Positions 2,799 to 8,680 of a stretch of 12,804 nt of DNA are shown piece after piece. The number at the start of each line of letters is the position of its first letter. The stretch's first letter is position 1. The stretch comes from an uncultured Lachnospiraceae bacterium (GTDB lineage Bacteria > Bacillota > Clostridia > Lachnospirales > Lachnospiraceae). Below the pieces are notes generated by a model, which was given only the letters and a program-made list of their open reading frames with translations, did not search any database and was not told where the DNA came from. Made by a program: the position numbers and the translations under genes. The DNA is taken from contig CAMPBP010000011.1 of assembly GCA_946639085.1 (NCBI GenBank), positions 1 through 12,804 on the forward strand, given 5' to 3'.

Positions 2799-3002
2799 TC
2801 AGATGATCCCTGCATATTCGTATCCGGCATCTTCAACGGCTTTCTTTATATCCTCTTCGCTGACGTCGCCGTTAAGGGTAAGGACTACCAGGTTTTCTTC
2901 ATGGGATGCGGTTGCGCTTTCAACACCCGGGAGTGCTTCAAGAGCTTTCTTTACGTGTGCCTCGCAATGTGCGCACATCATTCCTTTAACAGATATCTTC
3001 AT
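2799..3002 (-). CDS. Predicted nested CopZ-like copper chaperone made by internal initiation in copA
   Basis: In the copA frame, Met773 begins a complete 67-residue HMA domain (copper motif GMMCAHC, residues 7-13 of the short product) that ends at the copA stop. Its length and boundaries match free CopZ proteins (about 68-70 residues). On the coding strand AAAAGGAGG ends 8 nt before this ATG, with AGGAGG at complement 3011-3016. This is nearly the full anti-Shine-Dalgarno complement and is stronger than the AGGAG of the main copA start. CopZ-type proteins carry Cu(I) in the cytosol to CopA. The layout suggests an ancestral copA-copZ pair fused in frame while keeping the copZ start, giving both fused and free domain. 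Alternatively, the ribosome site could be a relic with little use. Confidence 0.55.
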   Translation of the reverse strand: MKISVKGMMCAHCEAHVKKALEALPGVESATASHEENLVVLTLNGDVSEEDIKKAVEDAGYEYAGII

Positions 3003-5318
3003 ATTCTTTTCCTCCTTTTGCTCGATCACTTCGGAACCTGACTTTAAGGTCGTTTTCGTATCTTCTCTGTTCAGCTTGATAAGGTTTAATCTTAACGCAT
3101 TCATTACAACGCAGAAGCTTGAAAGGCTCATGGCCGCCGCACCGATCATGGGATTTAAAGAAATGCCCAATGCCTTTGTATAGGCTCCCGCTGCGAGGGG
3201 TATGCATATTACGTTGTAGAAGAATGCCCAGAAAAGATTCTGGTGAATGTTTTTAAGGGTTGCACGGCTTAACTTAACGGCGGATACCACATCACTCAAC
3301 TTGCTCTTTACCAGCACAACGTCTGCGGCGTCTATGGCTATGTCGCTTCCGGCGCCTATCGCAATACCGATATCCGCCCTCGTAAGTGCCGGAGCGTCGT
3401 TTATTCCGTCACCTACCATGGCAACTTTTCCGAATTCTTTAAGTTTGTTTATTACCGCTTCTTTTTCACCGGGCTTGACCGAAGCGGTGACTTCATCGAT
3501 GCCTGCCTTCTTTGCGATGGCTGCTGCGGTCTTTTCGTTGTCACCGGTAAGCATTACGACTTTAAGTCCCAGTGTTTTAAGAGCACTTACCGCCGCGGGA
3601 GTGTCTTCTTTTATAACATCCGCCACTGAGATGATACCCAGAAATTCCCTTTCTCTTAAAAAGAAGAGAGGAGTCTCGCCTTTTAAGGAAAGATCGTCAC
3701 AGAGTTTGAGTGTTTCGTCGGAAAGGGAAACTTTACTTTCAATAAATTCTCTGTTTCCCGCGTATGTTTTTATATTGCTGACCGTTCCGGTTAATCCATT
3801 GCCGGGCAGTATATCCACATCATCTGCGGCATATGTTTCGAAGGAAAGATCCTTTGCGTATGCGCTTACGGCTCTCGCAAGGGGGTGTTCCGACTTTTCT
3901 TCCAACGAGTAAGCAGTCTTTATGAGTTCTTTTTCTTCGATACCCTTTGCGGGATAAACACCGGTTACGACAGGCTCACCTTTTGTAACAGTTCCGGTCT
4001 TGTCGAGAGCGATGACCTTAACTTTGCCTGTCTCTTCCAAAGATGCTGCCGTTTTAAAAAGTATTCCGTTCTTTGCGCCGACACCGTTACCCACCATGAT
4101 CGCCACGGGAGTGGCAAGTCCCAGAGCACAGGGACAACTAATAACGAGTACGCATATCGCTTTCGGAAGAGAAGCCGTAAAGCCGTTTCCCGTCACCATC
4201 CAGGCGATAAAAGTGATAAGTGCGATAACCAGCACCGCCGGCACAAATATGCCCGATACTTTATCGGCTATCTTTGCGATAGGCGCCTTTGTGGTGGCCG
4301 CGTCGCTCACCATCTTTATTATCTGAGAAAGAGTGGTGTCTTGTCCGACTCTTGTGGCCTCACATATCAGATATCCGTTCTCACATGTCGTTGCGGATGT
4401 GACAACGTCCCCTTCCTTTTTGTCGATGGGAATACTCTCACCGGTGATGGCCGATTCGTTAACGGCACCGTTTCCTTTGTGAACGATTCCGTCAACGGGA
4501 ATGTTGTTACCCGCACGGATAACAAAGAGGTCGCCGGGTTTAACCGTGTCTATGTTCACTTCCCTTTCGACACCGTCTTTTAATATGACGGCAGTTTTGG
4601 GAGTGAGCTTCATAAGACCTTTTAAAGCATCCGTCGTTCGGCCCTTTGAGATCGACTCAAGCAGTTTTCCCACGGTTATGAGGGTAAGTATCATCGCCGC
4701 CGATTCAAAATAAAATTCGTTCATGTAAGAATGGGCCAGCTCATTGTTACCCGCGTCACTTGCTCCAATCATGGAAAACAGAGCGATGACGCTGTAGCAA
4801 AATGCGGCTGCGCTTCCCATGGAAACCAGGGTGTCCATGTTTGGCGCTTTATGAATGAGGCTCTTAAATCCGCTTATGAAGAACTTCTGATTTACGACCA
4901 TGACGGCCGCACTCAGCAAAAGCTCGTATACGCCTGTCGCGATGGGAGTACATAAAGCTTTGGGTATAGGAAAACCAAACAGCATATGTCCCATGGATAC
5001 GTAAAGTAAAGGTAATAAAAGGATGAGGGATACAATCAGCCGATTTCTTATCTTGGGAGTCTCAGTGTCTTTAAGTTCGTCTTCAAAACCGCTCGAGGAG
5101 TCCGAAGAGGTTTCTTTGTCCCCTTTTACCGATGCACCGTACCCTGCGTCGGTCACAGCTTTTATTATAAGATCGTCAGATGCGGCGCCGGTAACGCCCA
5201 TAGAATTGGTCAGTAAACTGACGGCGCAACTTTCCACCCCGGGAACCGACGAAACCGCCTTTTCCACACGGGCCCGGCATGCATCACAGCTCATGCCTGT
5301 CACGTTATAATGTTTCAT
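2799..5318 (-). CDS. copA: Cu(I)-exporting P1B-type ATPase with N- and C-terminal HMA domains
   Basis: 839 residues. Start chosen at the ATG whose first base is 5318: it has AGGAG (complement 5327-5331) 8 nt upstream and gives a clean HMA N-terminus, whereas an in-frame ATG at 5375 only adds unrelated residues. Domains in order: HMA with GMSCDAC (8-14), membrane helices from about 92, actuator TGES (292-295), the CPC metal motif in ISCPCALG (393-400), phosphorylated Asp439 in DKTGT, HP at 478-479, GDGIND (636-641), then YN (701-702) and MSLSS (730-734), the residues that mark the Cu(I) P1B-1 subgroup. A hydrophilic linker (about 750-772) leads to a second HMA with MMCAHC (780-785). Role: ATP-driven export of cytoplasmic Cu(I) (possibly Ag(I)). 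A C-terminal HMA in addition to the N-terminal one is not the classical layout, and this one has its own internal start (see the nested CDS). No CsoR or CopY regulator gene is adjacent. Confidence 0.95.
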   Translation of the reverse strand: MKHYNVTGMSCDACRARVEKAVSSVPGVESCAVSLLTNSMGVTGAASDDLIIKAVTDAGYGASVKGDKETSSDSSSGFEDELKDTETPKIRNRLIVSLILLLPLLYVSMGHMLFGFPIPKALCTPIATGVYELLLSAAVMVVNQKFFISGFKSLIHKAPNMDTLVSMGSAAAFCYSVIALFSMIGASDAGNNELAHSYMNEFYFESAAMILTLITVGKLLESISKGRTTDALKGLMKLTPKTAVILKDGVEREVNIDTVKPGDLFVIRAGNNIPVDGIVHKGNGAVNESAITGESIPIDKKEGDVVTSATTCENGYLICEATRVGQDTTLSQIIKMVSDAATTKAPIAKIADKVSGIFVPAVLVIALITFIAWMVTGNGFTASLPKAICVLVISCPCALGLATPVAIMVGNGVGAKNGILFKTAASLEETGKVKVIALDKTGTVTKGEPVVTGVYPAKGIEEKELIKTAYSLEEKSEHPLARAVSAYAKDLSFETYAADDVDILPGNGLTGTVSNIKTYAGNREFIESKVSLSDETLKLCDDLSLKGETPLFFLREREFLGIISVADVIKEDTPAAVSALKTLGLKVVMLTGDNEKTAAAIAKKAGIDEVTASVKPGEKEAVINKLKEFGKVAMVGDGINDAPALTRADIGIAIGAGSDIAIDAADVVLVKSKLSDVVSAVKLSRATLKNIHQNLFWAFFYNVICIPLAAGAYTKALGISLNPMIGAAAMSLSSFCVVMNALRLNLIKLNREDTKTTLKSGSEVIEQKEEKNMKISVKGMMCAHCEAHVKKALEALPGVESATASHEENLVVLTLNGDVSEEDIKKAVEDAGYEYAGII
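3011..3016 (-). promoter_or_regulatory. Strong internal Shine-Dalgarno inside copA
   Basis: AGGAGG on the copA strand, within an AAAAGGAGG context, 8 nt before an in-frame ATG (first base 3002). It lies in the codons of the hydrophilic linker (around KEEKN), where amino-acid constraint should be weak, so the motif may be kept for translation rather than for protein sequence. Confidence 0.6.
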
Positions 5319-5361
5319 GATTAATTCTCCTAAGGTTGCGGTTACCCGCAGACAATTACAA

Positions 5362-7687: not shown

Positions 7688-8680
7688 TTGAAAAAAATAT
7701 TGGTTATAATGATTGCGGTGATGTTCGCTGCGATCGGTCTTTCAGCTTGCGGCAAGGAAGAAAAGGCAAACATTGCCGGGGGCGATTCTTTAAGTATAGT
7801 TACAACTGTTTTCCCCGAATACGATTGGGTTATGAATATACTCGGTGATAATCCCGCAAATGCGGATGTCACGTTACTTTTGGACAACGGTGTGGATCTT
7901 CACAGCTACAATCCCACCGCTCAGGATATCATAAAGGTTTCTTCCTGCGACATGTTCATCTATGTCGGGGGCGAATCCGACAAATGGGTTGATGATGCGT
8001 TAAAAGAAGCAGTCAATCCCGATATGGTGGTAATAAACCTTCTGGACGTCCTTGGGGACAGTGTTAAGGAAGAAGAAGTAGTCGAAGGTATGGAAGCCGA
8101 GGAAGAAGAGGAAGAAGAAGGAGAAGAAGGCGAAGAAGAAGTTGAGTACGATGAGCACGTTTGGCTCTCTTTAAGAAATGCTTCCAAACTTGTTGAAGCC
8201 ATCGAGGAAGGTCTTGAAACCATCGACCCTTCCAACGCATCCGCATATAAGAGCAACCTTTCTTCGTACAAGGATACTTTGAGCGCTCTTGACGAGAAGT
8301 ACAAAGAAGCCGTTTCGGAGGGCACCAAGGATACCCTTCTTTTTGCGGACAGATTTCCTTTCAGATATCTTGTGGATGATTACGGTTTGAATTATTATGC
8401 GGCTTTTGTGGGATGTTCCGCAGAGACCGAAGCAAGCTTTGAAACGGTTTTGTTCCTTGCAAATAAAGTCGATGAACTTTCCCTTCACACCGTACTTACG
8501 ATAGAAGGAAAGGATCACAAGATTGCCGATACGGTGATCTCAAGCACCGAGAGCAAAGATCAGAAGACAGCAACAATGGATTCCATGCAGTCTTGTACGT
8601 CACAGGATGTTAAAAACGGTGTAACGTATGTTAAGATAATGGAAGACAATCTCGAAGTGTTAAGAGAAGCATTGAGATAA
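7688..8680 (+). CDS. znuA: Zinc ABC transporter substrate-binding lipoprotein (ZnuA/AdcA type)
   Basis: 330 residues from a TTG start with GGAGG (7674-7678) 9 nt upstream. The lipoprotein signal ends in lipobox LSAC, with Cys21 anchored in the membrane. Cluster 9 (metal) binding-protein features: His72 in VDLHSYNP, His157 in DEHVW, a DRFPFRYLVDDYGL block (221-234) where classical ZnuA has a His-containing motif, and a late IEGKDHKIA / MEDNLEVLREAL region. Role: binds Zn(II) (Mn(II) less likely) outside the cell and hands it to the permease. The loop before the second His, usually His-rich in ZnuA, is a run of Glu (about 128-155) with almost no His. The third ligand appears to be Asp221 rather than His. 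First of the three transporter subunits in the operon. Confidence 0.9.
   Translation: MKKILVIMIAVMFAAIGLSACGKEEKANIAGGDSLSIVTTVFPEYDWVMNILGDNPANADVTLLLDNGVDLHSYNPTAQDIIKVSSCDMFIYVGGESDKWVDDALKEAVNPDMVVINLLDVLGDSVKEEEVVEGMEAEEEEEEEGEEGEEEVEYDEHVWLSLRNASKLVEAIEEGLETIDPSNASAYKSNLSSYKDTLSALDEKYKEAVSEGTKDTLLFADRFPFRYLVDDYGLNYYAAFVGCSAETEASFETVLFLANKVDELSLHTVLTIEGKDHKIADTVISSTESKDQKTATMDSMQSCTSQDVKNGVTYVKIMEDNLEVLREALR
8099..8141 (+). repeat. GAA-rich purine tract encoding the poly-Glu loop of the zinc-binding protein
   Basis: 32 uninterrupted purines (8099-8130), one C, then ten more purines, built from GAA, GAG and GGA/GGC codons. Imperfect trinucleotide repeats can gain or lose in-frame units by slippage, so loop length may vary between strains. 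Confidence 0.6.

Follow-up and report, generated by a model that had tools for sequence, protein, structure and literature searches.

In Escherichia coli, frameshifting in copA releases the N-terminal HMA domain, and Meydan and coworkers as well as Drees and coworkers, both in 2017, are said to have traced the resulting CopA(Z) to programmed -1 frameshifting. In Archaeoglobus fulgidus, CopA carries an HMA-type domain at each of its ends, and its C-terminal metal-binding domain is reportedly named in the title of a paper by Agarwal and coworkers of 2010. That E. coli obtains pump and chaperone from its one copA gene via frameshifting is also stated in passages of one paper (PMC9548414), and both it and a second paper (PMC7558416) refer to the above work of 2017. 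Another way of drawing two proteins from one gene appears in a passage on Cas11 (PMC11899642, citing McBride et al. 2020), where internal in-frame starts within cas8 and cas10 genes give the C-terminal part as a protein of its own. We describe here a copA gene (Table 1) found in the window, that is, in the whole stretch of 12,804 nucleotides of an uncultured Lachnospiraceae bacterium that was analysed, which by analogy resembles both systems at once, its apparent outcome being that of E. coli copA and its apparent mechanism that of Cas11. A full-text search, with most subscription journals outside its coverage, returned no description of such an internal start in copA, nor, for copA, copZ, or copper ATPase genes, of any fusion or any internal or alternative start.

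Table 1. Features of the copA gene in the window; all lie on the minus strand.
Feature	Coordinates	Strand	Basis
copA, 839 codons: N-terminal HMA, P1B ATPase core, linker, C-terminal HMA	2799..5318	-	translation; Pfam HMA (two matches), E1-E2_ATPase, Hydrolase
AGGAG ahead of the own ATG of copA (5318-5316)	5327..5331	-	sequence near the start
N-terminal HMA domain, motif GMSCDAC	5139..5309	-	Pfam HMA match
Linker, 28 codons, from the last membrane helix to the C-terminal HMA; read as a putative former copA-copZ spacer	3003..3086	-	length, hypervariability; split genes with a spacer at the equivalent place in 9 relatives
Internal Shine-Dalgarno AAAAGGAGG	3011..3019 (3019-3011)	-	sequence; conservation against nulls
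Internal ATG, codon 773, Met773 of CopA	3000..3002 (3002-3000)	-	sequence; ATG here in 292 of 320 relatives
C-terminal HMA domain	2817..2996	-	Pfam HMA, 65.2 bits
Nested ORF, 67 codons, predicted free CopZ-type chaperone, motif GMMCAHC	2799..3002	-	Pfam HMA; fold model; CxHC common to 202 of 205 relatives

The likeness to E. coli lies in one copA gene giving a copper pump together with a small HMA-type chaperone, the latter predicted in our case; the difference is that there the N-terminal HMA domain is obtained by a frameshift, whereas here the C-terminal one would be obtained by a separate start. Frameshifting after the N-terminal HMA domain was considered for the window gene and rejected: the first slippery X XXY YYZ heptamer in phase lies at codon 216, well beyond that domain, and the sole CCCAAAG (codon 119) does not stand in the slippery phase, which lends support to the proposal of the initial annotation that the mechanism differs from that of E. 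coli. With the CopA of A. fulgidus, the shared trait is a copper ATPase having HMA-type domains at both ends. With Cas11, as that passage presents it, the gene shares an internal Shine-Dalgarno and a start in the same frame that would yield a small C-terminal protein, and in copA this start and its Shine-Dalgarno are conserved beyond codon need; the family and the function are different, and Cas11 has been seen by blot, mass spectrometry or mutation, whereas the 67-residue protein is predicted.

A motif scan of the CopA core found all five of the motifs sought, namely CPC, DKTGT, TGES, HP, and GDGxNDAPAL, and the protein scores 574.2 bits against TIGR01511, the cut-off being 397. The Cu(I) ATPase signature, located in the last helices, has the two parts N(x6)YN(x4)P and M(x2)SS, and both were found by the scan, as NLFWAFFYNVICIP at 694 and MSLSS at 730; from the motifs and the TIGR01511 score, the product is a predicted Cu(I)-exporting P1B-type ATPase. 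The host assembly amounts to 1.65 Mb in 297 contigs and is 62 % complete, and the nearest named relative found is a Lachnospiraceae metagenome-assembled genome (L063), the copA of which is 87 % identical. As for the surroundings of the gene, a stem of 11 pairs, with a T-rich tail on each strand, lies between the DUF6472 gene and copA (2749-2774) and is, from its sequence, likely a bidirectional terminator; a ZnuA-type zinc-binding protein (7688-8680, Pfam ZnuA) has the Glu-rich loop VEGMEAEEEEEEEGEEGEEEVEYDEH at a place where proteins of this type often have a His-rich loop; and a hydrophobic, membrane-type ORF of 460 residues (1135-2517) has no Pfam match at E <= 0.001. The window has no Rfam match to a structured RNA at gathering scores.

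On the minus strand, the internal start is read as GAG CAA AAG GAG GAA AAG AAT ATG AAG ATA TCT, with 8 nt between AGGAGG and an ATG that stands in the frame of copA itself and shares its stop codon. The initial annotation, which had pointed to a Shine-Dalgarno 8 nt before an ATG in frame, from which a complete HMA domain of 67 residues runs to the stop of copA, was exact in this respect, both in the sequence and by Pfam, where residues 3-62 of the 67-mer cover profile positions 2-62 of 62 with 66.2 bits, the cut-off being 24.8. Its statement that the internal Shine-Dalgarno is stronger than that of copA also stands, given that the internal AAAGGAGG matches 8 nt of AAAGGAGGTGA and AGGAG only 5 nt. 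A single-sequence AlphaFold2 model of the 67-mer has the complete beta-alpha-beta-beta-alpha-beta order of six elements at a mean pLDDT of 83.7, and Foldseek matched this model to HMA domains that include the CopZ structures 6ff2, 2qif, and 1cpz; on this model, independent folding of the 67-mer is predicted. It scores under the cut-offs of all the NCBIfam CopZ models (63.9 of 85 bits for NF047957, and 54.2 of 91 and 46.3 of 95 bits for two others), and therefore we name it CopZ-type and do not count it as a member of those families. Of 128 short database relatives, 14 were examined, and some of these have exactly 67 residues from the equivalent Met and come from long contigs (P0007, P0102, P0103); being protein records without genomic context, they were not counted as evidence. 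In the window gene alone, random synonymous recoding of the 8 codons before the ATG equals the match length in 2.8 % of cases and, with the linker being of Lys-Glu-Glu composition, the gene by itself is only modestly surprising and would not settle the case.

The relatives were drawn from overlapping sets of genomes (genus, 18; family, 397; order, 295; class, 341), together with 80 loci from public contigs; regions were taken for part of the approximately 150 matches listed, best first in the first set and chosen by family in the order and class sets. The first set began with 259 loci, 228 of them with a CopA ORF, and after excluding the loci with less than 50 % identity or without a C-terminal HMA motif it comprised 212, reduced to 205 by 90 % nucleotide deduplication. 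The order set had 89 loci, of which 72 were kept after dropping 4 without the domain and the duplicate proteins, while 5 missed by the strict motif were parsed again with the class set. In the latter, 57 loci were parsed (50 new and 7 re-parsed), giving 47 fused genes (2 of them counted before), 9 split pairs, and 1 unclassified locus (L367). The joint set thus held 322 copA genes with a C-terminal HMA domain, 320 of them non-redundant, and the unrooted tree was built from 334 CopA cores, namely 317 of the 320 plus the 9 split ones and 8 without the domain. In the first set, the best Shine-Dalgarno among the candidate ATGs was taken, whereas in the joint set the ATG was picked by position only.

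An ATG lies 5-11 codons before GMxC in 292 of the 320 relatives, in 234 of them at exactly 8 codons. Matches to AAAGGAGGTGA at a usable spacing reach at least 5 nt in 273 of these 292 genes, at least 6 nt in 232, and at least 7 nt in 171, while the synonymous nulls (300 recodings) give means of 143, 77 (76.8), and 34, with maxima of 167, 93, and 47, respectively. At the same three thresholds, the other in-frame ATGs of the same genes give 347, 77, and 5 among 7,881, and the out-of-frame ATGs 712, 143, and 13 among 7,323. The excess at 6 nt or more recurs in each set, with 142/187 against a null of 52.1 in the first set, 60/70 against 17.7 in the order set, and 35/43 against 8.9 in the class set, two of whose 47 genes had been counted before; across relatives, the own starts of copA reach the same match length in 94/195, against the 142/187 of the internal starts, the best candidate near the N-terminal HMA domain having been taken per gene. 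Of the 34 coded families sampled, 33 contain genes with the ATG, many of them through one gene only. This cross-relative comparison is decisive: the Shine-Dalgarno and ATG inside the window gene are not a product of chance, and the start and its Shine-Dalgarno are, as judged from the aligned genes, kept far beyond what the codons need. The internal initiation put forward by the initial annotation thereby gains support, with 232 of 292 genes against 77 expected.

The origin of this start is suggested by nine more distant relatives belonging to seven other families (L349-L357), where copA and copZ are adjacent genes with a stop between them, and where CopA ends right after its last helix, without a tethered C-terminal domain. 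These pairs resemble the window gene in their gene order and in the geometry of the copZ start and its Shine-Dalgarno, since in all nine the copZ start lies 8-9 codons before GMxC at a Shine-Dalgarno spacing of 7-8, as in the internal start; they differ in having a stop that closes copA before copZ and in the absence of the tethered domain. They were picked for in-frame stops among the matches, and therefore they show that the arrangement exists and not how frequent it is. CxHC, which is typical of Gram-positive CopZ, is found in the C-terminal domain of 202/205 relatives and in 7/9 of the separate copZ genes, and the N-terminal domain has CxAC in 193/197. On the unrooted tree of the 334 CopA cores, the fused and the split states are separated by one change, which points to one old event; with the domain-less genes as a third state, the tree needs seven changes. 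The simplest history is thus a single old in-frame fusion in which the spacer would have become the linker, a direction that we infer from the sequences, and the copA-copZ fusion supposed in the initial annotation finds support in these unfused relatives with a separate copZ of equal start geometry.

The same history leaves room for a relic, meaning that the Shine-Dalgarno and ATG would be functionless remains of a formerly separate copZ and the C-terminal HMA only a tethered metal-binding domain; the source of such a signal is visible in the unfused relatives, and 25 of 317 lineages have lost the signal while keeping the domain. We consider this improbable, given that one change between fused and split genes means one old event and that the signal has nevertheless outlasted its surroundings. 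In the two closest relatives, whose proteins are 85-87 % identical, the linker has only 49 and 51 % nucleotide identity, with 79-88 % in its flanks, and the 18 nt reaching from Shine-Dalgarno to ATG have 89 and 72 %; the initial annotation had asked for a look at close relatives, and these two do keep the start despite the divergence of the rest of the linker. At the residue level, the linker is nearly unconserved, its entropy over positions -20 to -13 ahead of GMxC being 3.1-3.8 bits, while at the two synonymous third positions within the motif the base is G in 75 and 78 % of cases: Lys at codon -5 is AAG in 144/162, against 48 % in the rest of the genes, and Glu at codon -4 is GAG in 212/231, against 43 %. 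The motif also persists across codon phases, those of at least 6 nt being distributed over the three phases as 192/34/6.

Even less probable is that AGGAGG reflects the peptide or a pause, be it as part of a linker rich in Lys and Glu or as an anti-Shine-Dalgarno pause aiding membrane folding, with the Met kept for copper binding; that linker composition does speak for it, as does the finding that about 77 of the 292 genes reach a match of 6 nt or more through recoding alone. The peptide, however, varies with the codon phase while the DNA motif remains constant, and the spacing between Shine-Dalgarno and ATG is exactly 8 nt in 205/269 genes, whereas the last membrane helix lies 11 to 135 codons away, and therefore the motif belongs to the start codon and not to the helix. 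In addition, three genes (L064, L082, L384) have a motif of at least 6 nt that is followed by GTG or TTG rather than ATG, and the RNA is little structured near the start, with a mean folding energy of -2.5 against -4.6 kcal/mol for synonymous versions and a weaker fold in about 83 % of 149 genes (every second gene). Taken across the relatives, selection at the internal start region is on the DNA rather than on the peptide.

A free CopZ made from a separate short transcript, with a promoter inside copA in place of internal initiation on the full mRNA, is equally improbable and was rejected, even though E. coli copA reportedly combines differential transcript formation with frameshifting, as the title of Drees and coworkers (2017) is said to state, because a scan of the copA strand for sigma-70-like sites, the one type scanned, found none near the internal start (the nearest upstream match, at 3659-3631, is weak, and the 4 matches compare with 3.5 in shuffles), and the same start codon would serve anyway.

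We therefore return to the reading of copA as a copA-copZ fusion translated from two starts, which very probably would give a pump and a free CopZ, the internal start being held by selection. Ribosomes starting at 5318 would make the copper pump of 839 residues, bounded by its two HMA domains, and ribosomes entering at AAAAGGAGG and starting at 3002 would make its last 67 residues as a free CopZ-type copper chaperone; with no promoter-like site near the internal start, both products coming from one mRNA is the simpler reading. The internal start would be the original copZ start, which selection would have retained ever since an old in-frame fusion removed the stop of copA, and its strong site may supply the chaperone in excess over the pump. 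We infer, from sequence, that the 67-mer is made, carries Cu(I), and serves CopA.

The start is dispensable in some lineages, given that it is absent in usable form in 25 of 317, with 16 state changes on the tree. The initial annotation had expected relatives keeping the C-terminal domain to keep the start as well, which holds for most of them and fails in these 25. Among public contigs, the ATG is present in 7/20 of those named Oscillospiraceae and in 23/25 of those named Lachnospiraceae. A motif of at least 6 nt occurs in 3/25 start-less genes against 236/292 start-bearing ones, and this joint loss of start and motif is not significant when paired on the tree (7 supported pairs). In the first set, among loci whose downstream sequence spans 500 nt or more, copA is directly followed by a small HMA ORF of its own frame in 7/19 start-less against 3/179 start-bearing cases, and among the latter three, one (L143) is a large membrane protein and another (L164) lacks a Shine-Dalgarno match. 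These raw counts are clear and fit a replacement of the nested copZ by a downstream one; paired on the tree, the replacement is not significant (6 supported pairs, about 3 of them informative and, in almost all pairings, all pointing the expected way). Four genes (L097, L101, L107, L118) have AAAGGAG or GGAG, then 4 nt, and then ATT or ATC instead of ATG, and are possible decayed internal starts; in two others (L076, L120), CopA has its C-terminal HMA motif twice in tandem, and the internal start is absent.

A cell may have CopZ besides the nested product, as at least one other short HMA ORF (frame of at most 112 codons, over the Pfam cut-off, counted manually) is present in 17/22 start-bearing and 19/19 start-less genomes. 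Apart from copA, the window genome, at 62 % completeness, has one HMA match, to an ORF of 133 codons whose N-terminus carries an apparent membrane anchor. Five loci (L003, L407, L415, L416, L418) have HMA ORFs, about 130-150 codons long, that combine such an apparent anchor with a Cys-rich stretch. Stand-alone HMA proteins of the type GMxCGMCE.HV..A.R, with a Tyr-Lys-Lys tail, sit beside or instead of the fused domain; they lie downstream of copA in L005, L164, L175, L186, L194, and L074, and occur also in L110 and L424. L110 had been taken for a frameshifted copy of the fused gene, which was rejected, as it is a separate CGMC-type HMA ORF that overlaps the copA stop by ATGA.

Beyond the window gene, it is probable, with somewhat less confidence, that in much of the class examined each copA mRNA would give a pump with its tethered domain as well as a free CopZ, that the internal site is more often strong than the own site of copA, and that the lineages losing the start tend to have, in its stead, a small HMA gene that stands separately beside copA. 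If true, this would be a third route to pairing a copper pump with its chaperone, besides separate genes and the frameshifting of E. coli, of which it would be the convergent counterpart. It would exemplify the fusion of an operon without losing the second product, and would explain why these pumps carry a C-terminal HMA domain. Given that a single-ORF reading annotates the pump only, the chaperone supply of many bacteria would escape annotation.
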